This document shows positions 4,077 through 63,894 of a stretch of DNA of 64,000 nucleotides, piece by piece. The first letter of the stretch is position 1; every line of letters begins with the position of its first letter. Position numbers and translations under genes: made by a program. The stretch comes from Siccirubricoccus phaeus (lineage in GTDB: Bacteria > Pseudomonadota > Alphaproteobacteria > Acetobacterales > Acetobacteraceae), in assembly GCF_008360935.1 (NCBI RefSeq), contig NZ_SRXO01000004.1, positions 186,001 to 250,000 of the forward strand. Reading direction: 5' to 3'. The notes under the pieces are model-generated. The model did no database searches. It was not told where the DNA came from and was given only the letters and a program-made list of their open reading frames with translations.

Positions 4077-4568
4077 TCATTTCATGACGGAGCCCTCAAC
4101 CATTCCGTGGGCGGCCGAGAGGCAGTGGCCGTGGTCGGTGAGGGTCCCGAGGACGCGGCACTCGGCGGCGACGCCGCCGCTGCACCCACTGCCCGCCAGG
4201 CGCGCCAGCTCGTCCCGCAGGGCCGCCAGCCGCCGGAGCTTGGCCTCGACCTCGGCGAGCTGGGAGACGGCCAGGGCGTGGGCGTCGCCGCAGGGGCGCT
4301 CGGGGCGGGCGGCCAGGTCCAGCAGCCTGCGGATGGCCTCGAGGCCGAAGCCGAACTCCCGCGCGTGCCGGATGAAGGTCAGCCGCGCCCGGTGCGGGCG
4401 CCCGTAGAGGCGGTGCCCGCCCTCGGTCCGCGCAGCTGGCGGCAGCAGGCCGATCTCCTCGTACCAGCGCACGGTCTGCACCTTGCACCCCGCCTCGCGG
4501 GCGAGCTGGCCGATGGGGATCAGGGCTCCTTCCTGGATGGCGGCCCGGCGGGTGGTCGGCATGTCCAT
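4077..4568 (-). CDS. MerR-family divalent-metal-responsive regulator (CadR/PbrR/ZntR type)
   Basis: 163 residues from the ATG at 4568 (ATG 4562 is an alternative). The winged helix-turn-helix reads LIPIGQLAREAGCKVQTVRW-YEEIGLLPP, followed by the HRLYG wing and a dimerisation helix. The metal site is Cys in RPCGDAH (helix Cys, typical of divalent sensors; CueR has Ser here) plus a C-x7-C loop (CSGGVAAEC). A HGHC near the C-terminus could add ligands. It lies immediately upstream of, and codirectional with, the czc promoter at 4022-4052, so it is the likely activator. Zn/Cd/Co/Pb cannot be distinguished from sequence alone. Confidence 0.88.
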   Translation of the reverse strand: MDMPTTRRAAIQEGALIPIGQLAREAGCKVQTVRWYEEIGLLPPAARTEGGHRLYGRPHRARLTFIRHAREFGFGLEAIRRLLDLAARPERPCGDAHALAVSQLAEVEAKLRRLAALRDELARLAGSGCSGGVAAECRVLGTLTDHGHCLSAAHGMVEGSVMK

Positions 4569-4696
4569 GCAATCGAAGATGGGCCCGGACCGGCCCTGAC
4601 GCAAACCGAACCCGGTGCCCGGGCGGTCGAGGCACGGGCAAGGAGGTGCGGAGCCAAATGCCGTCGGTGACGTTTGCAGCCGTGTTGATAGCCGTC

Positions 4697-4720
4697 GCGG
4701 CCGCCCATCCTGGCGGCCGC
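4697..4720 (+). promoter_or_regulatory. Leader hairpin before the 4740 gene
   Basis: Perfect 9-bp inverted repeat GCGGCCGCC / GGCGGCCGC with a 6-nt loop, ending only a few bases before the GGAAGG ribosome site of the downstream gene. It could act as an mRNA stability or translation-control element; there is no T-tract, so it is not a terminator. Confidence 0.35.
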
Positions 4721-4739
4721 CCAGAAAGGAAGGCCGCAT

Positions 4740-5120
4740 ATGAACCTTCGCGAGGCCCTGGTGGGCATAACGATCCTGGCGGGAATGCCCGCGGCGGCCG
4801 CTCCGGCGATCGCGGCTGACGTTGCCGACCGCAGCCCGGTGCTGACGCAGGCCGCCGGGCAGCGCGGGGAGCACCCACGGGGCCCGCACTTCGATGCAAC
4901 ACAGGGCGGTGGCCAGCAGCCGCACAACCCGAATGCCGCCCCTACCCAAGCTGGCGGTCCACCGGCGCATTTCGATGCAACACAGGGCGACACCCAGCAG
5001 CCGCACCGCCCGGGTGCGTCCGGCCAGACCGGCGGGCCTCCGGCGCACTTCGATTCGACCCTGGGCGATACACAGCAGCCGCACACTCCCGGTCGCGGCG
5101 CGCCCTCACCCAACCGCTGA
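4740..5120 (+). CDS. Secreted His/Gln-rich tandem-repeat protein upstream of czcD
   Basis: 126 residues with a signal peptide (about 1-27, ending AAPAIAA). The mature part is built of about 2.7 imperfect 26-27-residue repeats, each carrying HFDATQG...QQPH...GGPP (about residues 43-120). Each repeat brings two His and several Gln/Pro and no Cys. The ATG follows GGAAGG and a strong leader hairpin. The stop is 12 bp before czcD, so the two are probably one transcript. A role as extracytoplasmic zinc/cobalt buffer is inferred from the His repeats and context. I do not recognise a named family. Confidence 0.75.
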   Translation: MNLREALVGITILAGMPAAAAPAIAADVADRSPVLTQAAGQRGEHPRGPHFDATQGGGQQPHNPNAAPTQAGGPPAHFDATQGDTQQPHRPGASGQTGGPPAHFDSTLGDTQQPHTPGRGAPSPNR

Positions 5121-5132
5121 TCCGAGACGCCG

Positions 5133-6107
5133 ATGGGTGCCGGACACAGCCACGGGGCGGGCGCGAACGAGCGGGCATTGCGCTGGGCGCTGGCGCTCAC
5201 CGGCGGCTTCATGCTGGTGGAGGTGGCCGGATCCTTCGTCACCGGCAGCCTCGCCCTGCTCTCCGATGCCGCGCACATGTTCACCGACACCGCGGCGCTG
5301 GCGGTCTCGCTCGCCGCCATCCGGGTCGCCCGCCGCCCCGCCGACCGCAGGCGGACCTGGGGCTACCACCGCTTCGAGATCCTGGCCGCGGCCTTCAACG
5401 CCTCGCTGCTGTTCCTGGTGGCGCTCTACATCCTCTGGGAGGCGTGGCAGCGCTTCCGCGCCCCGGTCGAGGTGCAGAGCCTCGGCATGCTGGCGGTCGC
5501 CGCCGCCGGGCTGGTGGTGAACTGGCTCTCCATGCGCCTCCTCGCGGGCGGCAGCGGGGAGAGCCTGAACATCAAGGGCGCCTACCTCGAGGTCTGGAGC
5601 GACCTGCTCGGCTCGGTCGCGGTCATCCTGGGCGCGGGCGTCATTTGGCTCACCGGCTGGGCCTGGGTGGACCCGGTGCTCGGCGTCGGCATCGCCCTCT
5701 GGGTGCTGCCGCGCACCTGGACGCTGCTGCGCGAGACCACCAACGTCCTGCTCGAAGGCGTGCCCGCCGGGATCGACCTCGACGCGGTCGAGCGCGCCAT
5801 TCTGGACACCCCGGGCGTGCGCGGGGTGCACGACCTCCACGTCTGGGAGCTCTCCTCTGGCAAGGTCGCGCTCTCGGCCCACATCGAGGTGGACGCGACC
5901 CTCGCCCGCGTGGAGCGGCTGGAGGACGCGCTCGGCGCCATGCTGGCGGCGCGCTTCGGCGTCACCCACTCGACGGTGCAGGTGGAGCTGCCCGGCGCGC
6001 ACGGCGGGCACGACCCGCACGCCGCCTGGGCGGCCGCCAAGGACGCGGGCGGACACGCCCACAACCACGAGCACGGCCATCCATCGCGTCGCGCGACGGG
6101 AGACTAA
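5133..6107 (+). CDS. czcD: CzcD cation-diffusion-facilitator efflux protein
   Basis: 324 residues, six predicted membrane helices. The N-terminus is GAGHSHG. The transport-site motif DAAHMFTD (residues 45-52) and the second-site segment AYLEVWSDLLGS are as in Cupriavidus-type CzcD. GYHRFEILAAAFNA and LLEGVP are further CzcD signatures. A cytoplasmic C-terminal domain (about 210-300) ends in a His-rich tail (HAHNHEHGH). It exports Zn/Co/Cd from the cytosol to the periplasm by proton antiport, complementing the RND pump encoded divergently. Confidence 0.95.
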   Translation: MGAGHSHGAGANERALRWALALTGGFMLVEVAGSFVTGSLALLSDAAHMFTDTAALAVSLAAIRVARRPADRRRTWGYHRFEILAAAFNASLLFLVALYILWEAWQRFRAPVEVQSLGMLAVAAAGLVVNWLSMRLLAGGSGESLNIKGAYLEVWSDLLGSVAVILGAGVIWLTGWAWVDPVLGVGIALWVLPRTWTLLRETTNVLLEGVPAGIDLDAVERAILDTPGVRGVHDLHVWELSSGKVALSAHIEVDATLARVERLEDALGAMLAARFGVTHSTVQVELPGAHGGHDPHAAWAAAKDAGGHAHNHEHGHPSRRATGD

Positions 6108-6159
6108 TTCATTTCAGTAGCGTACAGAGATTGCGTGGTCGCCGCCTTCTTGGGCAGCC

Positions 6160-6408
6160 TCAGGCGGGGTCACCCGACCCGTCGACCCCGCCGCCCGGGC
6201 CAGGCGGCTGCGCACGGCTCTCCAGGCTCGCGCGGCTCACCCCTAGGCGCTCGATCTCCCGGGCAAGGTGCTCGTAGTCGAGCCCGATGGCCTCCGCGCC
6301 GCCGTGCTGCGCCGCGCGCAGGGCGGCGGCCTGCCGCCGGGTCCATTCTACGAAGTCCCGCTCGTAGAGCGCGGCCGCCTGGGCCGCCGGGGTCGAACCC
6401 ACCACCAT
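6160..6408 (-). CDS. Truncated DUF29-family protein
   Basis: 82 residues from ATG 6408, preceded by GGAGG. Residues about 12-60 match the N-terminal half of DUF29 (LYERDFVEWTRRQAAALR, LAREIERLG). The second half of the roughly 150-residue family domain is missing and replaced by a short Gly/Pro-rich tail. It is probably a degenerate remnant of backbone DNA; function unknown. Confidence 0.6.
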   Translation of the reverse strand: MVVGSTPAAQAAALYERDFVEWTRRQAAALRAAQHGGAEAIGLDYEHLAREIERLGVSRASLESRAQPPGPGGGVDGSGDPA

Positions 6409-38079: not shown

Positions 38080-38110
38080 TTGACCTTGCCACGTGGGAGG
38101 GCCGGAGGAT
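38080..38110 (+). promoter_or_regulatory. CueR/HmrR-type promoter box
   Basis: TTGACC (38080-38085), 19-bp spacer carrying CTTGCCAC-GTGGGAGG, then GAGGAT (38105-38110). Half-sites match the copper-responsive CueR pattern of the boxes at 46874, 49126 and 61881. Likely drives the 38407-40462 genes or a leader RNA. Confidence 0.6.
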
Positions 38111-38177
38111 CCGGCCCTCCCAGCGGCACGGAGGACGGCGTGGTTGACGACGGGAGGCCGAAGTGCGCGCCCCGACC

Positions 38178-38247
38178 GGGATGCGCTCGGTGCATCGAGG
38201 TCGAAAGCGCACGGCATTTCACCTCGCGCCGCCGCCGGTCCAGTCTC
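38178..38247 (+). repeat. About 70-bp element repeated at 47388-47457
   Basis: Shares CGGGATGC, GCATCGAG, GGCATTTC and GCCGCCGGTCCAGT in order with 47388-47457, about 75% identical overall. Both copies lie downstream of a CueR-type box on the same strand. Coding potential is ambiguous. Confidence 0.6.
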
Positions 38248-45615: not shown

Positions 45616-45827
45616 CGGCGCTCGACGACGCGGAAGCCGGGCTTCTGGATCGTCGCGACCAGGCGCTCCTCGTCCGTGGCCTGCGGGTCGTAGAGGACGC
45701 GGGCCTCGCCCTCGGCGAACGAGACGGAGACCGCCTTCACGCCGGGCTCCTTCTCCACGAGGCCTTTGACGGTGTTGGCGCAGCCGTCGCAGCGCAGGCC
45801 CTCGATCCTGAAGGTCGCGTTCTTCAT
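45612..45827 (-). CDS. HMA-domain metallochaperone (CopZ/MerP-like, cytoplasmic)
   Basis: 71 residues, ATG 45827 overlapping the merR stop by 4 bp. One ferredoxin-like HMA domain with GLRCDGCANTVKGLV. No signal peptide, unlike MerP. Expected to hand metal to the HMA domain of the ATPase in the same operon. Confidence 0.88.
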   Translation of the reverse strand: MKNATFRIEGLRCDGCANTVKGLVEKEPGVKAVSVSFAEGEARVLYDPQATDEERLVATIQKPGFRVVERR

Positions 45828-46294
45828 CGGTGGACTCCCTTCGTGGTTTGGCTTGGGTTGGAACAGCACGCCGTCCCGCCGTCGCCGGAGTGGTGAGTCA
45901 GCGCGTCCATGATCGAGCACGCATGCAGGCCGCCGCGCCCGGGGCAGGCCGCGATCAGCCGCTCCAGCGCGGCGCCGATGTCCTGAAGACGCTGGATCTT
46001 GCGCTGGACGTCATCGAGCTTCGCCGTCGCCCGCTCTCGCACGTCGGAGCAGTCCGCGGCGGGGTCGGCTCGCAGGGCCAGCAGCTCGTGAATCTCGCGC
46101 AGGGAGAAGCCGAGTTCCTGCGCGTCCTTGATGAAACGGATGCGCTCGACCGTGTCGGCCGGGTACAGGCGCACGCCCGCCCCCTCCGGCTTCGGCGGCT
46201 GCGCCACCAGGCGCTGCCGCTCGTAGAACCGGATCGTCTCAACGCCGACGCCTGCCGCCCGGGCGGCCCTGCCGATGGTCAGTCCCGCAGTCAT
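45824..46294 (-). CDS. merR: MerR mercury-type regulator
   Basis: 156 residues. HTH LTIGRAARAAGVGVETIRF-YERQRL; Hg ligands by position: Cys in ADCSDVRE and a C-x8-C loop CPGRGGLHAC, the spacing of mercuric MerR. An added CC near the C-terminus (GTACCSN). GAGGTGACGAG precedes the ATG. It is first in its operon and lies immediately behind a classical mer operator, so it should autoregulate. Confidence 0.9.
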   Translation of the reverse strand: MTAGLTIGRAARAAGVGVETIRFYERQRLVAQPPKPEGAGVRLYPADTVERIRFIKDAQELGFSLREIHELLALRADPAADCSDVRERATAKLDDVQRKIQRLQDIGAALERLIAACPGRGGLHACSIMDALTHHSGDGGTACCSNPSQTTKGVHR

Positions 46295-46312: not shown

Positions 46313-46343
46313 ATGTGGGGTCCGTACCTAAGTACGGAATCAA
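46313..46343 (-). promoter_or_regulatory. Classical mer-type promoter/operator
   Basis: Minus strand: -35 TTGATT (46343-46338), 19-bp spacer, -10-like CCACAT. Centre is TCCGTAC-TTAG-GTACGGA (46338-46321), a perfect 7-bp dyad identical in arms to Tn501/Tn21 mer operators. It drives merR-HMA-ccdA-ATPase-MFS. Confidence 0.9.
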
Positions 46344-46643
46344 GGGGCAAAATGACGAGGTCGGGCCGCTGGCTTCGCGGCAGCTTCCACAGCCTTCGTT
46401 GGTCCCCGGTGCCGCCCGCCGGGAAATGCGGCGCACCCGGTCGGGCGGACAAGGCATCTCACGCCCAATGGGTCGTCGATTCCCGACAGCAGCTTGGCGG
46501 CGGAGCTGCGGGGCCCGCGTATTGCGGCCTTGTATGGTTCCTCCCGATTTCTGCGGCCTCGGGTTCGCCCCCCCTGAGCCAGCCCGATCAGGAGGCCCAG
46601 TTCCCATCCGGCCCTTGGCCCGAGGCTCGACTGGCCAACCTCC
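46344..46643. other. Intergenic, no gene seen
   Basis: 300 bp between the mer operator and the 65-residue protein gene. 46560-46643 is similar to 61565-61650 (shared CCCCTGAGCCAGCCCG and CTCAGTGGCG), part of the duplicated module. Confidence 0.5.
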
Positions 46644-46841
46644 TCAGTGGCGGGACCGATCCGGCGCCCGCGCCCCGACCGACGTGAGATAGGCCTCCGC
46701 CAGGACCGAACCCGGCGACGCATCGCTGCAGAGCGCCTCTAGGGCGCGCAGCAGGTGCTCGGCCGCCTCCGCCTGCCCCTCCGCCAGGGCCCGCTCGAGC
46801 GCCGCCAGGATCTGCTCCTCCAAGCTCTCGGGTGGCGGCAT
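46644..46841 (-). CDS. 65-residue helical protein under a CueR-type promoter (copy 1)
   Basis: 65 residues from ATG 46841 (GGAGGAG upstream). SLEEQILAALERALAEGQ and AAEHLLRALEALC form two amphipathic helices; one Cys. About 80% identical to 61650-61847. Family unknown. The promoter 46874-46904 lies 33 bp upstream of the start. Confidence 0.75.
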   Translation of the reverse strand: MPPPESLEEQILAALERALAEGQAEAAEHLLRALEALCSDASPGSVLAEAYLTSVGARAPDRSRH

Positions 46842-46873
46842 CTTCTCCTCCGTCGATGATGCGGGTCTCCAAG

Positions 46874-46904
46874 ACCGTGCCCCCTTCCCCTGTGGGAAGG
46901 TCAA
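46874..46904 (-). promoter_or_regulatory. CueR/HmrR-type promoter box (copy 1)
   Basis: TTGACC (46904-46899), 19-bp spacer with perfect dyad CCTTCCC-ACAG-GGGAAGG, CACGGT (46879-46874). Same as 61881-61911 except in the loop. Points to the 65-residue gene. Confidence 0.8.
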
Positions 46905-47042
46905 GCGCCCCGGCGGCTCGGCCGCATACATACTTTGAAATACTCGGTCGGGCCGTCCCGGCCTGGGGTCCGGACGTTCGTGGTGGAAACCGTCTAGCCC
47001 GCCCCGCAGCGCTGGGGACGGCAACGAAGGAGACACGCCGGG

Positions 47043-47234
47043 ATGATCGACACCAGGACGCTTCGCCGCACCGGCCTCGCGTTGGCGTTGGGCCTCTCGC
47101 TCGCGGCCTGCGCCCAGCAGGCAAGTCCCCCGCCCGCCTAGCAGACCGGTGGCATGTCCGGCATGGGTGCACAGGGCATGGCGGGGCACAGCATGTCGGG
47201 AATGCAGGGCTACAACATGTCCGGCATGAGCTGA
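47043..47234 (+). pseudogene. Met/His-rich lipoprotein with internal stop codon (copy 1)
   Basis: ATG 47043 gives MIDTRTLRRTGLALALGLSL and AACAQQASPPPA with lipobox LAAC. It then hits TAG at 47139-47141 where copy 2 (62108) has CAG. Beyond the stop the frame continues QTGGMSGMGAQGMAGHSMSG to TGA 47232-47234. A single C-to-T change would explain it. Confidence 0.75.
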
Positions 47235-47261
47235 CCCTGCCGTGTGGAAGGGCCGGATGCT
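47231..47261 (+). promoter_or_regulatory. CueR-type box downstream of lipoprotein copy 1
   Basis: CTGACC (47231-47236), 19-bp spacer with CTGCC-GTGTGG-AAGGGCC, GATGCT. Spacer resembles 38086-38104 (shared GGGCCG end). It precedes the repeated element at 47388 on the same strand, as at 38080. Confidence 0.5.
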
Positions 47262-47559
47262 CCCGCCTCGGTCACCCGACCGGCAAGGAGGCGGGAGTGG
47301 TGGCGACAAGGTGCAGGGCCCCCGGCTCGCGCTGCCCCGCTTACGAGGGGGCGTCGGCACCAGCCGATTGCGCGCGGCGTCCCGCTCGGGATGCCTGTGG
47401 CGCATCGAGACCGAGAGAATGTGGCATTTCGCCCCGCGCAGCCGCCGGTCCAGTCCTCCTGACTGTTACTGGCGCCTGGCCCGGGCGGCGGCGCGGGAGC
47501 CAAAGTCGTTCGCGGTGGCGGAGTGACGGTTGTTGCCGAGCCGTGGAATCCTGCCCTGG
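47262..47559. other. Intergenic region with repeated element; no supported gene
   Basis: Contains 47388-47457 (copy of 38178-38247). A 94-codon frame from 47242 is open through it but has no motif. Confidence 0.45.
47388..47457 (+). repeat. Second copy of the 70-bp element of 38178-38247
   Basis: See 38178: shared ordered blocks CGGGATGC, GCATCGAGA, GGCATTTC, GCCGCCGGTCCAGTC. Third-position changes are seen in one of the frames, so a short conserved peptide cannot be excluded. Confidence 0.6.
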
Positions 47560-48696: not shown

Positions 48697-49190
48697 GCCC
48701 TCTCCTCGCCCGATGCAACATTGGATCGGCCGCCCGATGCGGGACATCGCCTGGACGGGCAAGTTGCTTGGCCGTCAGTAGCCCGAGGCGCCCTGCCCCG
48801 TCGGGTGCCGCCCTCCCCCTCTGGACCTCGCCGAACCCTTTGTCTTCGGCCACGGAGCGGGCGCGCCACCGCATGCGGACCTCGCGGCACCGCTGCCACC
48901 GCTTTCATACTTTGACATACTGGATCGGCTCGCCGGACGGCGTCGGGCCGATTCCTCCCGCGAGACTCGGCGTTGCCCGGGCCGCGATGAAACGCGTCAT
49001 CCTCGTCCTGCTTGCGGTCTTCCCTCCGGGTGCCGTCGATGCCGCATCGGGCCTCCACGACATGGTCCGGCCTCGCAGTTCCAGACCAGTTCGAGGTGGC
49101 CGGGCGCCGCCCCTCGCGGCAGCGCTTGACCTTGCCATTGTGGGAAGCCCCATCTGATCCGGCAGTCGAGATTGTCGGGAGGCGGGCGGG
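48697..49190. other. Upstream region of copA; possible 56-residue secreted peptide
   Basis: No secure gene. ATG 48987 opens 56 codons starting MKRVILVLLAVFPPGAVDAA, a plausible signal peptide, ending at 49157. Its 3' part overlaps the copA promoter box, making it doubtful. Confidence 0.35.
49126..49156 (+). promoter_or_regulatory. CueR-type promoter of copA
   Basis: TTGACC (49126-49131), 19-bp spacer TTGCCA-TTG-TGGGAAGCCC region, CATCTG (49151-49156); 34 bp before the copA start. Half-sites CTTGCCA/TGGGAAG match copper-responsive boxes. Confidence 0.75.
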
Positions 49191-51635
49191 ATGGACGCTC
49201 TGACTGCGGAAACCGGGACTGCCGCGAAGGCCGGGGGCGGTGCCGAGGTGGACATCGGCATCGAGGGGATGAGCTGCGCCTCCTGCGTCGGCCGGGTCGA
49301 GCGGGCCCTGAAGCGGCTGCCCGGCGTCTCCGACGTCTCGGTGAACCTCGCCACCGAGCGGGCGCGCGTCACCTTCATCGGTGCGCCGGACACGGCGGCG
49401 GTGGCCAGGGCCGCGGAGGAGGCGGGATACGGGGTTCCCGTGGCCGAGTTCGACCTGAACGTCCAGGGCATGACCTGCGCCAGCTGCTCGGGCCGGGTCG
49501 AGCGGGCGCTGAAGCGGGTGCCGGGCGTCGTCGAGGCCAAGGTGAACCTGGCCACGGAGCGCGCCCGTGTCACCGCCGCCCGGGGCGCCGTCACAGCCGA
49601 TCAGCTCGTCGCCGCCGTTCAGAAGGCGGGATACGAGGCCAGTCCGGTCGAGCAGGCGCTCTCCCCGGCGGAGGAGACCGATGCGGCGGCGGCCCGGAGC
49701 CGCCGCGACCTGTTCCGCCTCGTGGCTGCGGCCGCGCTCTCGGCGCCACTCCTGCTCGGTATGGCCGGGCACCTGTTCGAGGGCGGGTGGATGCTGCCCG
49801 GCTGGGTCCAGTTCGCCCTGGCGACACCGGTGCAGTTCTGGCTGGGCTGGCGGTTCTACGTGGCCGGGTGGAAGGCCGCGCGGTCCTTCAGCGGCAACAT
49901 GGACCTGCTGGTCGCGCTCGGAACGACGGCCGCCTGGGGCCTGAGCGTCTACGAGCTGCTGACGGCGCACGGGGACCACGCGCCCGCGCTCTACTTCGAG
50001 TCCTCGGCGCTCATCATTACCTTCGTCCTGCTCGGCAAGTGGCTGGAGGCCCGCGCCAAGGGGCAGACGGCCTCGGCCATCCGCGCCCTCATGGATCTAC
50101 GGCCCGACAAGGCGCGCCTGCGCAGGGGCGGCATCGAGGTCGAAGCGCCGCTTTCCGCGGTCCGGGTCGGCGACGTCGTCGTGGTCCGCCCCGGCGAGCG
50201 CATCCCAGTGGACGGGCGCGTCATCGACGGCGGCGGCAGCGTGGATGAGTCCATGCTCACAGGTGAGAGCCTGCCAGTGGAGAAGGCGGTCGGCACCAAG
50301 GTGACCGGCGGCTCCATCAACACCGACGGCCTCCTCATCGTGGAAACCAATGCCGTCGGCACCGAGACGGTGCTCGCAAGAATTGTCCGCCTGGTCGAGG
50401 GCGCGCAGGCGTCCAAGGCGCCGATCCAGCGGCTGGTGGACCGCGTCAGCGCGGTCTTCGTGCCGGTCGTGCTCGGCATCGCGCTAGCCACCTTCGTCGG
50501 CTGGTGGGCGGTCACCGGCGACGCGACGGCGGCCGTCCTGAACGCGGTGGCGGTGATGGTCATCGCCTGCCCCTGCGCGCTCGGCCTGGCGACGCCGACC
50601 GCCATCATGGTCGGGACCGGCGCCGCGGCCCGGCACGGCATCCTCATCAAGGACGCCGAGGCGCTGGAGCGGGCGCACGCGGTCACCACGGTCGCCTTCG
50701 ACAAGACCGGAACCCTGACCGAGGGGCGTCCCGAGGTGACCGACGTCGTCCCGGCAGATGGGGCGGGCGCGGCGGAGGTCCTCCGCCTGGCCGCCGCGCT
50801 CCAGGCCGGGAGCGAGCACCCGCTGGCGGCCGCCGTCCGGCGCCGGGCCGAGGCCGAGGGCATCCCGCAGGGATCCGCCAAGGATTTCCGCGCCCTCGCC
50901 GGGCGGGGCGTCTCCGGCGAGTTCGAGGGGCGCGCGCTCGTCCTCGGCAACCGGCGCCTGCTCGAGGAGAACGGGCTGGCCGGGGACGCGCTCGCCCCGG
51001 TGGCCAGGGACTTCGAGGCCGCCGGGCGGACCGTGTCCTGGCTGGCGGAGACGGCGCCGAACCACCGAACCCTCGGCCTTGTTGCCTTCGGCGATGCCGT
51101 CAAGGATTCGGCCAGGGCCGCCGTCGACCGGCTGCACCGCCAGGGCATCGAGACGGTCATGCTGACCGGCGACGGCCGAGGCGCCGCGGCCGTCGCCGCC
51201 GGATCGCTGGGCATCGGCAGGGTGGTCGCGGAGGTGCTGCCCGAGGGCAAGGCCGAGGCGGTCGCCGGGCTGCGCGGCGAGGGCAAGGTGGTCGCCATGG
51301 TCGGTGACGGCGTCAACGACGCGCCCGCGCTCGCCGCGGCCGACGTCGGCATCGCCATGGCGACCGGCACCGACGTCGCCATGCACACGGCGGGCGTGAC
51401 CCTGATGCGCGGCGACCCGGCGCTGGTCGCGGGGGCCATCGACGTGTCGCGGCGGACCTACCGCAAGATCCGGCAGGGGCTCTTCTGGGCCTTCGTCTAC
51501 AACCTGGTCGGCATCCCGCTGGCGGCGCTCGGCCTGCTCAGCCCGGTGGTCGCGGGCGCGGCGATGGCGTTGAGCAGCGTCAGCGTGGTCACGAACGCGC
51601 TCCTGCTCCGCGGCTGGAACCCACGGTCAGAGTAG
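49191..51635 (+). CDS. copA: Cu(I)-exporting P1B-1 ATPase
   Basis: 814 residues. Two N-terminal HMA domains with GMSCASC (27-32 region) and GMTCASC (about 95-101). Eight helices, [25 protein letters not shown], membrane site [42 protein letters not shown] and the Cu-type final helix residues [15 protein letters not shown]. It exports cytosolic Cu(I) to the periplasm, where the multicopper oxidase at 54346 can oxidise it. Confidence 0.96.
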
Positions 51636-60826: not shown

Positions 60827-60857
60827 AAGATAGGAGCTGTAGTAACTACAGGTTCAA
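60827..60857 (-). promoter_or_regulatory. MerR-family promoter/operator of merTPA
   Basis: Minus strand: TTGAAC (60857-60852), 19-bp spacer with CTGTAG-TTA-CTACAG, TATCTT (60832-60827). Half-sites are the CTGTAG type of the 11498 box, not the TCCGTAC type of classical mer operators. Confidence 0.88.
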
Positions 60858-60881
60858 GAGGGAATCTGTACCCCTGAGGAG

Positions 60882-61307
60882 ATGGCGGTGGACGGCAAGC
60901 GGCAAGGCATCTCGATCGGCGACCTCTCCCTGCGGACGGGGGTCAACATCGAGACCATCAGGTACTACGAGAAGGTCGGCCTGCTACCCGCCCCCGGGCG
61001 GACGGAGGGGCGGCACCGGGTGTACGGGCCCGCGCACGTCGCCCGGCTCACCTTCGTCCGGAGGAGCCGCGAGCTGGGCTTCAGCCTCGACGAGGTCCGC
61101 AGCCTCCTGAGGCTCGTCGACGGTGGCCACGGCTCGTGCTCGGACGTCCAGGCCGTGACCCTCGAGCACCTCGAGGAGGTGCGGAGGAAGATCGCCGATC
61201 TCCAGCGGCTGGAGCGGACCCTGAGCGAGGTCGCGTCGCGGTGCCAGGGCGGCTCGGTGCCGGACTGCCCCATCGTCGAGGCGCTCTATGCATCCCCGAA
61301 CCCCTAG
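60882..61307 (+). CDS. MerR-family regulator divergent from merTPA
   Basis: 141 residues. HTH ISIGDLSLRTGVNIETIRY-YEKVGLLPAP; helix Cys in GSCSDVQ; C-x7-C loop CQGGSVPDC. Loop is one residue shorter than in mercuric MerR. GAGGAG precedes ATG 60882. Controls the mer genes by position. Confidence 0.9.
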   Translation: MAVDGKRQGISIGDLSLRTGVNIETIRYYEKVGLLPAPGRTEGRHRVYGPAHVARLTFVRRSRELGFSLDEVRSLLRLVDGGHGSCSDVQAVTLEHLEEVRRKIADLQRLERTLSEVASRCQGGSVPDCPIVEALYASPNP

Positions 61308-61311
61308 GTCC

Positions 61312-61472
61312 TCAATGAGGCAGATGCGCTCGACCACGTCGGTCGGGTACACGCATAGGCCCGCCCTCCGACCTGGGCGCCTGCTCCACTGGGCGCCGCC
61401 GCTCGTAGAACCGGATCGTCTCGGCGCCAACACCCGTCTCGCGGGCGATCCGGCAGATGGTCAGCCTTGCCG
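61312..61472 (-). pseudogene. merR N-terminal remnant (mercury-type)
   Basis: Minus strand: LTICRIARETGVGAETIRF-YERRR, then a frameshift near 61350, then CVYPTDVVERICLIEDLG, ending against the 60882 gene. Closest to the 45824 MerR. The metal-binding half is missing. Confidence 0.78.
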
Positions 61473-61649
61473 TCCCGGAAGGGCAGCTTCGTGTCCGGGT
61501 CGCGGGCCCCGTCCATGTTGGTTGCCGTCTCCTGCGGCTCCTCCCGCCTCCCGATGGCCCGGGGGTCGGCTTCGCCCCTGAGCCAGCCCGTCAAGGGGCA
61601 CCACTTCCCCCCCCCCCTCTCCAGCTCGCATCTCGACTGTCTGCCGCCC

Positions 61650-61847
61650 TCAGTGGCGAGACCGCTCCGGCGCGCGCGCCCCAATCGCTGCGAGGCAGGC
61701 GTCCGCCAGGGGTGTTCCCGGCGACGCGTCTCCGCAAAGCGCCTCCAGGGCGCGCAGCAGGTGCTCGGCAACTTCCGACCGGCCCTCGGCCAGGGCCCGC
61801 TCGAGCGCCGCCAGGATCTGTTCCTCCAGGCTCGGGGGTGACGGCAT
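61650..61847 (-). CDS. 65-residue helical protein (copy 2)
   Basis: ATG 61847 with GGAGGAG upstream. SLEEQILAALERALAEGR, VAEHLLRALEALC; same as 46644 apart from about 13 substitutions, which are spread but conservative, indicating selection on the protein. Function unknown. Confidence 0.75.
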   Translation of the reverse strand: MPSPPSLEEQILAALERALAEGRSEVAEHLLRALEALCGDASPGTPLADACLAAIGARAPERSRH

Positions 61848-61880
61848 CTCCTCCTCCGTCGACGGATGTGGGGCGCGCGA

Positions 61881-61911
61881 ACGCTGCGCCCTTCCCCCGT
61901 GGGAAGGTCAA
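61881..61911 (-). promoter_or_regulatory. CueR/HmrR-type promoter box (copy 2)
   Basis: TTGACC (61911-61906), 19-bp spacer with CCTTCCC-ACGG-GGGAAGG, CAGCGT (61886-61881). Drives the 65-residue gene. Confidence 0.8.
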
Positions 61912-62107
61912 GCGCCCCGGCGGCCCACGGCCGCATACATACTTTGAAATACTCGGTCGCGCCGTCTCGGCTTGGCCGCCGGGCGTTCCCCGTGGAAAGT
62001 CCGTCGCGCCTCCCGCCGCCGCCCACCCCGGGCGCCGGTGCGGCGCGGCGCGGCGGCAGACACGGTCCATCGGCAGCGCCGGAGGCCGCAATGAGGAGAC
62101 GCACCGG

Positions 62108-62707
62108 ATGATCGACACCAGGACACTTCGCCGCACCGGCCTCGCGCTCGCGGCCTGCGCCCAGCAGCCGAGCCCCCCGCCGCCCCAGCAGACCGGCAGC
62201 ATGTCGGGGACGGGCACCCACCAGCGCCACGACAAGCGTGCGATGGGGGGCATGCACGGCCACGACGTGTCCGGCATGAACATGCAACAGATGGCCGCCC
62301 ACTGCGCCGAGATGCGTCAGCAGATGCGGCCGGGCGCCGCTATGAGCCCGGACATGCAGGCGACGATGGCGCACCGCGACCAGATGCATCCCCACGCGGG
62401 CACCGCGGGCGCCACATCCGGCGGCGCGGGGCAGCACGGCACTGACGGGAGGCGGGGAGCGGCCGGAGCCGCCCCCGGCTGCCCGAACCCTGCGGCTTGG
62501 AACCGCACCGTCCGCAACGGCGGCGAGTTGGCGATGACCGAGACCGAGCCGAGCGCCATGCCAAGGCGGCGGCGATCGGGCCGAGCAGGATGGCGAGCAT
62601 GGGGTGGAGCAAGGCCGCCGCCCGCGGCACGCCGGGCGCCACGCGCCGTAGGCCAGATCGGCGGCACCGTCAGCGCCCACGCCGTGTCCGTCAGGTCGCT
62701 GTCGTAG
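62108..62707 (+). CDS. Met/His-rich lipoprotein (copy 2), C-terminus probably replaced
   Basis: 199 residues from ATG 62108. Lipobox LAAC; then CAQQPSPPPPQQTGSMSG, GGMHGHDVSGMNMQQM, CAEMRQQM and MAHRDQMHPHAG, about 14 Met and 12 His. From about residue 120 the frame runs through unrelated DNA holding a transposase fragment on the other strand, so the natural end is probably lost. Likely periplasmic copper binder. Confidence 0.65.
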   Translation: MIDTRTLRRTGLALAACAQQPSPPPPQQTGSMSGTGTHQRHDKRAMGGMHGHDVSGMNMQQMAAHCAEMRQQMRPGAAMSPDMQATMAHRDQMHPHAGTAGATSGGAGQHGTDGRRGAAGAAPGCPNPAAWNRTVRNGGELAMTETEPSAMPRRRRSGRAGWRAWGGARPPPAARRAPRAVGQIGGTVSAHAVSVRSLS

Positions 62708-63075: not shown

Positions 63076-63894
63076 ATGGGCATTCTTACACCGCCGCCTT
63101 CCCATGAGGATGACAAGGTGACTAACAGCTACAAGCCAGCAGGTGGCGGCGAGCAGCCCACAAAGCCCATGAAGGGCGAGAAGCCCGAGCAACCCACGAA
63201 GAACGACAAGCCCGAGCAGCCCGCGAAGGGCGAGAAGCCTGAGCAGCCCATGAAGGGCGACAAGGACCACAAGGGCGAGAAGCCCGAGTATCCCGTGAAG
63301 GACGACAAGGGCGACAAGGGCGACAAGCCTGAGCAGCCCGTGAAGGACGACAAGGGCGACAAGGGCGAGAAGCCCGAGCAGCCCGTGAAGGACGACAAGG
63401 ACCACAAGGGCGAGAAGCCCGAGCAGCCCGTGAAGGGCGACAAGGGCGAGAAGCCCGAGCAGCCCGTGAAGGGCGACAAGGGCGACAAGAGCGACAAGGG
63501 CGACAAGCCTGAGCAGCCCGTGAAGGACGACAAGGGCGACAAGGGCGAGAAGGACCTCCACGGCGGGAAGGACCAGCACGACGGCCACCCGGCAAAAGTC
63601 GTGCACGACAAGCCAGGTGACCAGTACTACTTTGCCGATGGCAAGGACGAAAAATTCGTCTTCAGCGGCAAGTCCGGCGGTGACGACACCATCAAGGGCT
63701 TCGATGACAAGCACGACGCCATCAAGATCGAAAACGACTACAAGTTCGAGATCGACTACAACGGCAACCACGACGGCGACGTCGTTATTACCTGGGGCAA
63801 GGACAACATGATAACGCTTAAAGGTGTCGAGCAGATCGAGGAGAGCGTCGTCAAGGGGTTCGACCAACACCAGTCAGATTATCCGTGGGCCTGA
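63076..63894 (+). CDS. Lys/Glu/Pro repeat protein with RTX-like C-terminal domain (paralogue of 23526)
   Basis: 272 residues. Residues about 25-160 are repeats of KGDKGEKPEQPVK and DDKGDKGDKPEQ. Residues about 170-272 are homologous to the end of the 23526 protein: AKVVHDKPGDQYYFADGKDE, KFVFSGKSGGDDTIKGFDD, GDVVITWGKDNMITLKG. No Sec signal. Same inferred route (type I secretion) and unknown function. Confidence 0.85.
   Translation: MGILTPPPSHEDDKVTNSYKPAGGGEQPTKPMKGEKPEQPTKNDKPEQPAKGEKPEQPMKGDKDHKGEKPEYPVKDDKGDKGDKPEQPVKDDKGDKGEKPEQPVKDDKDHKGEKPEQPVKGDKGEKPEQPVKGDKGDKSDKGDKPEQPVKDDKGDKGEKDLHGGKDQHDGHPAKVVHDKPGDQYYFADGKDEKFVFSGKSGGDDTIKGFDDKHDAIKIENDYKFEIDYNGNHDGDVVITWGKDNMITLKGVEQIEESVVKGFDQHQSDYPWA

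Follow-up and report, generated by a model that had tools for sequence, protein, structure and literature searches.

Few metal responses have been studied as thoroughly as the CueR regulon, whose known outputs act in copper export, oxidation or chaperoning. Genes of the CueR/HmrR regulon (copA/actP, cueO, copZ) are associated with a promoter signal described, in the part of the source available (PMC1526738), as a palindrome ACCTTCC...GGAAGG placed within a 19-bp spacer. The copper chaperone CopZ is likewise considered to be under CueR-type control (PMC13001215). In the 64,000-nucleotide stretch of Siccirubricoccus phaeus DNA analysed here, called the window, a duplicated module carries the gene of a 65-aa protein preceded by a promoter of this kind. 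The module shares with the CueR/HmrR regulon the palindrome in the 19-bp spacer and the copper-gene neighbours, whereas its small protein is unlike any known output of the regulon and is devoid of recognised metal-binding motifs. Such a small unnamed protein, behind a CueR-type switch and near copper genes, may be a component of the bacterial copper response that has been overlooked.

The earlier note on this DNA had described modules at 46560-47234 and 61565-62300 as sharing gene order, box and flanking genes. This is borne out by blastn within the window, as 46540-47229 and 61547-62279 align with 539 identical columns out of 757 (E 2.9e-112); the two module segments are a real duplication. 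The small gene is an ORF of the minus strand in both copies (46644..46841 for copy 1, which has homologues in other genomes, and 61650..61847 for copy 2), and the two 65-aa proteins are 78% identical. A second alignment block, between 46124-46282 and 61308-61464 (79% over 159 bp), is a merR remnant; the mercury-type merR is intact beside copy 1 and reduced to this minus-strand remnant (61308..61464) beside copy 2, as had been claimed. The number of copies has to be corrected from two to three since a third, decayed module is found just outside the window (contig C34:254371-254502), in which the box is altered and an in-frame TAG is present.

The box TTGACCTTCCCAC.GGGGAAGG is located on the minus strand at 46883-46904 and 61890-61911, directed at the 65-aa gene. 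It is embedded in CueR/HmrR-type promoters, of the form TTGACC-19 bp-CACGGT with the palindrome within the spacer for copy 1 (46874..46904, minus strand) and TTGACC-19 bp-CAGCGT for copy 2 (61881..61911, minus strand). For comparison, a separate CueR-type promoter, at 49126..49156 on the plus strand, serves the copA-like ATPase gene close by (49191-51635). When the 6.55-Mb genome is searched for TTGACCTTCC-N6-GGAAG, only copies 1 and 2 match without any mismatch, and the sole one-mismatch match is the third copy. When up to two mismatches are allowed over the same genome, 26 matches are obtained versus 27 for the reversed control, so that loose box matches are uninformative by themselves. Two genes of this genome score above the CueR cut-off (TIGR02044), each with a CueR-type box upstream.

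MerR-family genes are also found about 0.3-0.6 kb from both copies, and the module might be controlled by one of them, of the mercury type or another, in place of CueR. The regulator beside copy 1 (45824..46294, minus strand) is of the mercury type, with TIGR02051 as its best model at a score below the cut-off of that model. The second one (60837-61307) adjoins merT/merP-like genes, and the CueR, MerR and CadR-PbrR models score alike on it, all below cut-off. However, each of these regulators has its own palindrome with promoter elements, differing from the module box, at 46321-46343 for the mercury-type merR and at 60837-60857 (TTGAACCTGTAGTTACTACAG) for the second gene. No MerR-type palindrome was found upstream of the module genes, the mer-type palindrome preceding merR itself. 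Because the merR promoter contains a different palindrome, the presence of merR is no evidence for control of the module; the mercury-type merR was rejected as the module regulator on account of its different operator and is probably irrelevant to the module. As the module box in addition fits the CueR/HmrR signal published in the available part of PMC1526738, control by a local MerR-family regulator is highly improbable.

The small protein is present in many soil, water and plant-associated bacteria. Its profile matches 41 of 397 genomes of the same family at E<=1e-4, with 17 strong matches (E<=1e-12); the other 24 genomes give weaker ones (E 3.7e-6 to 9.8e-5) that are taken as a longer paralogue, to which 13 out of 13 fetched loci correspond. 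A peptide-motif scan of named genomes using the single pattern A[ED]HLL[RCH]A[LI]E yielded 68 loci in Alpha- and Betaproteobacteria, some of them being the same or nearly the same gene (L155/L157, L158/L159, L168/L170), which also holds for the plasmid loci L223/L224. This includes Dankookia, Roseicella, Belnapia, Skermanella, Azospirillum, Mesorhizobium, Aminobacter, Rhizobium, Ensifer, Methylobacterium, Noviherbaspirillum, Massilia, and Castellaniella. As these loci were selected by one peptide pattern, the invariance of the pattern residues is partly built into the alignment A4, made of 57 of the 68 loci and the two window copies after omission of near-duplicates and of frameshifted, N-holding or very short rows. 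The alignment A3, with 20 profile-found rows, is a fairer guide to conservation. Plasmid searches found nothing with copy 1 or with a Mesorhizobium member as query, and 11 records with an Ensifer member; the gene is annotated as 'hypothetical protein' in five of these records and is unannotated, or lies in an unannotated record, in the six others.

No Pfam or NCBIfam model covers the small protein among the 59 members scanned. The scattered weak Pfam matches (DUF1707 in four of the 59 members, DUF1028 in two and Dpy-30 in one) were not retained as a family assignment, nor was the one NCBIfam match, limited to a single member out of 59. On the window copies, DUF6103 and PSK_trans_fac fall below cut-off, and a sequence search of the PDB yields three DnaJ chains (E 0.5-0.8) that are regarded as chance matches. 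The protein is unmentioned in the open-access literature text searched, which includes portions of PMC1526738, PMC3668242, PMC13001215, PMC5045206, PMC5552934 and PMC6115938; that search covered article text, and supplementary tables could list such genes.

The promoter was followed across these loci by scoring the box over 15 positions in the 125 nt upstream of the small gene. A score of at least 13 is reached in 40 of the 68 motif-found loci versus 19 of 9,868 control windows of the same loci, and several of these 19 precede copA-like genes and resemble genuine CueR promoters. A -10 element NANNNT, which played no part in the selection of the 40 box-positive loci, stands exactly 19 bp from TTGACC in 39 of them, and in zero to three of the 40 at each of six other spacings. 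Sixteen of the 68 loci had already been met in the same-family genome search, 13 of them as rows of the query alignment; the box is present in 14 of these 16 and in 26 of the 52 others. Among the plasmid homologues of the Ensifer member, it precedes 10 of 11 genes versus two of 1,130 windows. A scan of 26 sites, this genome's own three included, detects it upstream of 22 when up to four mismatches are allowed (all four being needed at one site, G382), and not at G228a, G228b, G152 and G190c. No box reaches the threshold in 28 of the 68 loci, including 12 of the 13 that are betaproteobacterial by record titles, the one exception being L171; the box is thus mainly alphaproteobacterial.

The earlier note had made its observation depend on homologues with conserved context in other genomes, and such homologues were found, so the observation stands. 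CueR-driven, copper-dependent expression of the small gene is strongly supported by sequence and may be regarded as very probable. Cytoplasmic Cu(I) would bind a CueR encoded elsewhere in the genome, which would then remodel the over-long 19-bp spacer and allow the small gene to be transcribed, like copA. If so, the small gene could serve as a marker for CueR/HmrR targets left as 'hypothetical protein' by annotation.

Copies 1 and 2 share 80% DNA identity, and copy 2 groups with the module of Roseicella aerolata (90% identity, support 99.4/100). A recent duplication is rejected on this ground, and the duplication is either older than the split between copy 2 and Roseicella or copy 2 was transferred; the protein tree does not resolve the copies. 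Like the genome studied here, R. aerolata (L107, about 3408 and 6001) contains one small gene that seems intact and, approximately 2.5 kb away, a second module that has decayed. This decay, as well as the dead third copy and the damaged lipoproteins of the modules, would be expected if the modules here were relics, that is, old copies wearing out in a metal-resistance region whatever the family does elsewhere. Yet in copies 1 and 2 the 65-aa frame is still of full length, the box is perfect and the -10 element is present. Their pN of 0.12 versus a pS of 0.30 (pN/pS 0.39, from few changes) is consistent with purifying selection on the 65-aa gene, and it is improbable that the modules are relics.

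Neighbouring genes were compared by clustering the ORFs within 5 kb of the 68 loci, which had been found without regard to neighbours. A P-type ATPase occurs in 33 of the 68 loci, a multicopper oxidase in 23, a CcdA/DsbD-like group in 14 and another such group in eight, DUF411-like proteins in 13, CusA-like in 12 and MerR-like in 11, these counts being drawn from loci that vary in length, some being truncated at contig ends, under cluster names that are our own, part-checked reading. As background, 118 E1-E2 ATPase matches were counted in about 123 Mb from 30 related genomes, all Alphaproteobacteria, i.e., roughly 1% per 10-kb window. Neighbours of similar kinds are seen in the plasmid records (multicopper oxidase, DUF411, SCO, DsbA, CcdA, CusA and PCu(A)C). 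Because the neighbours are varied, no single partner stands out. Some box-less members are found in MerR-headed metal clusters (L153, L134, L130, L158). In L153 (Noviherbaspirillum soli, 4545-6171) and L134 (Massilia, 4589-6177), a ccdA-like gene is immediately followed by the small gene, which stands further downstream of such a gene in L130 and L158, with an MFS gene or another ORF between. The box-less ccdA-linked members L153 and L134 hint at a role beyond copper.

The longer paralogue, of about 95 aa, aligns with the family profile (hhalign 97.4%, E 9e-12) and has no Pfam match of its own. It shares with the small protein a homologous N-terminal hairpin and differs by its greater length and a conserved C-terminal part. 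A gene for the copper chaperone Sco (PF02630) is located upstream on the same strand in seven of the 13 fetched loci, and nrdB is present in nine of the 13, two of these loci being shorter than 1.8 kb. The order nrdB-sco-paralogue is also that of the window's genome (contig C26:21063-21257, L225), and further sco/nrdB loci of the paralogue are L036, L038, L039, L041, L043, L044 and L045. No CueR box was reported at the paralogue in the 11 loci scanned with up to three mismatches.

AlphaFold predicts three helices for the small protein (7-20, 24-37 and 46-57; pLDDT 86.4, pTM 0.70) and again three for a betaproteobacterial member (pLDDT 81.1, pTM 0.65). Foldseek gives no fold match at E<=0.001. 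By comparison with TPR proteins (FimV TPR3, BcsC, IpgC, BamD), the predicted model appears to share a helical-hairpin-plus-helix arrangement at VIA Z 6.0-6.7, but these TPR chains occur among unrelated helical proteins, their scores are not above those of unrelated helical-bundle rows, and the best row is a designed binder at 7.4. No Pfam TPR match is detected among the 59 small-protein members at E<=0.01. No signal peptide is visible by eye in the small protein, which is presumed to be cytosolic.

Being small, presumed cytosolic and under a CueR-type promoter, the protein resembles the CopZ/HMA copper chaperones. It might stand in for CopZ as a cytosolic copper buffer or chaperone, taking up Cu(I) via conserved His/Glu residues and, in members that contain it, Cys; it might do so as a dimer. 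Control by CueR is typical for CopZ, which according to the available part of a survey is uncommon in Rhizobiales (PMC5552934). A27, H29 and E35 are invariant in the 20 profile-found A3 rows, and many alphaproteobacterial members contain one or more Cys. In contrast with these chaperones, the prediction is all-helical, and neither an HMA match nor a MxCxxC motif is found in the small-protein sequences. Moreover, Cys is not conserved, and H29 is replaced by Phe in four of the 11 plasmid homologues, all four of which keep the promoter. For these last two reasons the protein probably has no conserved metal site, and a contact surface is the preferable assumption; a role as copper buffer or chaperone is accordingly rated as unlikely.

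Overall, the small protein is best read as a TPR-like adaptor of the cytosol, induced by Cu(I), and not as a metal binder; the chances of this reading may be put at about even. The product would fold as three helices, equivalent to one TPR repeat plus one helix, and, instead of carrying metal, would mediate protein-protein contacts as an adaptor on the machinery of copper handling (Sco/Ccd/cuproenzyme assembly, or export). Given CueR-driven, copper-dependent expression, the adaptor function itself stands close to the midpoint between probable and improbable. Contacts of another kind could be proposed, with the small protein binding to CueR, CopA or another regulator as a feedback or tuning factor, so as to end or shape the copper response. 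Its small size, its helical prediction, the lack of obvious ligands and a promoter of the same type as copA would suit such a factor, whereas nothing points to a specific partner and many members are encoded far from cueR, and this role seems rather improbable.

As an adaptor, the protein may be part of an unrecognised superfamily of small, ligand-poor helical adaptors for copper handling in Alpha- and Betaproteobacteria. This superfamily would include a housekeeping form by sco/nrdB and repeatedly recruited stress forms, either switched by CueR/HmrR or included in MerR-CcdA metal clusters. Such a generalisation is tentative and somewhat doubtful; if true, it would define a class of copper-response effectors that work through protein contacts, the metal being neither bound nor moved nor oxidised by them. 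A CueR/HmrR-type target that is widespread yet has no recognisable metal ligands would point to an unaccounted step in copper stress. The question is directly testable as the gene is short, unnamed and easily deleted, and as promoter-bearing homologues exist in culturable strains; a box-positive one is found in Sinorhizobium fredii NGR234, on pNGR234b.

Besides the small gene, the modules include a divergent Met/His lipoprotein gene. Undamaged relatives of this lipoprotein have 116-118 aa, a LAAC lipobox and many Met and His; by inspection, three aligned sequences display an N-terminal signal with the lipobox Cys of LAAC, as in bacterial lipoproteins. In the window, the copy 1 remnant (47043..47234, plus strand) is short and contains an in-frame TAG at 47139-47141. 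The frame of copy 2 (62108..62707, plus strand) has a shortened signal, part of the signal peptide being missing, and an altered, extended C-terminus in place of the normal one. That the 65-residue protein is kept while the lipoproteins decay, as previously stated, is confirmed. The module box points only at the 65-aa gene, not at the lipoprotein. At E<=1e-5, the lipoprotein is matched in 44 of 397 genomes; 10 of the 11 best places (E<=6e-26) are beside the small gene, and the weaker ones are mostly elsewhere. Among the 68 named loci, it lies within about 0.6 kb of the small gene in eight, all Acetobacteraceae/Roseomonadaceae, and further off in one more.

Co-occurrence of the two proteins in other genomes, proposed earlier as a check, is seen only in those families. 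From the genomes compared, the conserved unit appears to be promoter plus small protein, with the lipoprotein as a partner in Acetobacteraceae/Roseomonadaceae only. The 'small unnamed copper-responsive unit' first proposed is upheld as far as its widely conserved CueR/HmrR promoter, its copper and heavy-metal neighbours and the absence of a Pfam or NCBIfam model suggest, but not as a three-part unit with the lipoprotein. Within a single bacterial family, a Met/His lipoprotein that faces the periplasm and has an element of its own on the promoter side would be coupled divergently to this unit; here it is damaged, and the promoter and small protein persist.

The lipoprotein-side element CATACTTTGAAATAC, conserved in aligned intergenic regions, is found on the plus strand at 46929..46943 in copy 1 and at 61938..61952 in copy 2. 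Its form CATACTTTGNNAYAC, located between box and lipoprotein, has four exact matches in the genome, corresponding to the three modules and to position 48906 upstream of the copA-like gene, the reversed control giving none. Five further matches occur in four other genomes, each at a lipoprotein module. The fourth CATACTTTG element of this genome, at 48906 (window 48906-49157), precedes a short ORF (48988) whose start resembles a signal peptide; the copA-like gene with its CueR-type promoter follows this ORF closely. The element reads as CATAC-like halves 10 bp apart, and OmpR-type response regulators often use a 10-bp half spacing; a response-regulator box is only a suggestion.

Two other features of the window may be mentioned. 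A 79-bp repeat (38167-38245 and 47377-47455, 76%) and a CueR-like box (TTGACCTTGCCACGTGGGAGG at 38080) recur after a cusA-like gene and after the copy 1 lipoprotein (38080-38245 and 47233-47455), and possibly represent another repeated unit. Positions 63076-63894 hold a 272-aa ORF consisting largely of KGEKPEQPVK/DDKGDKG-type repeats, with an acidic C-terminal part.
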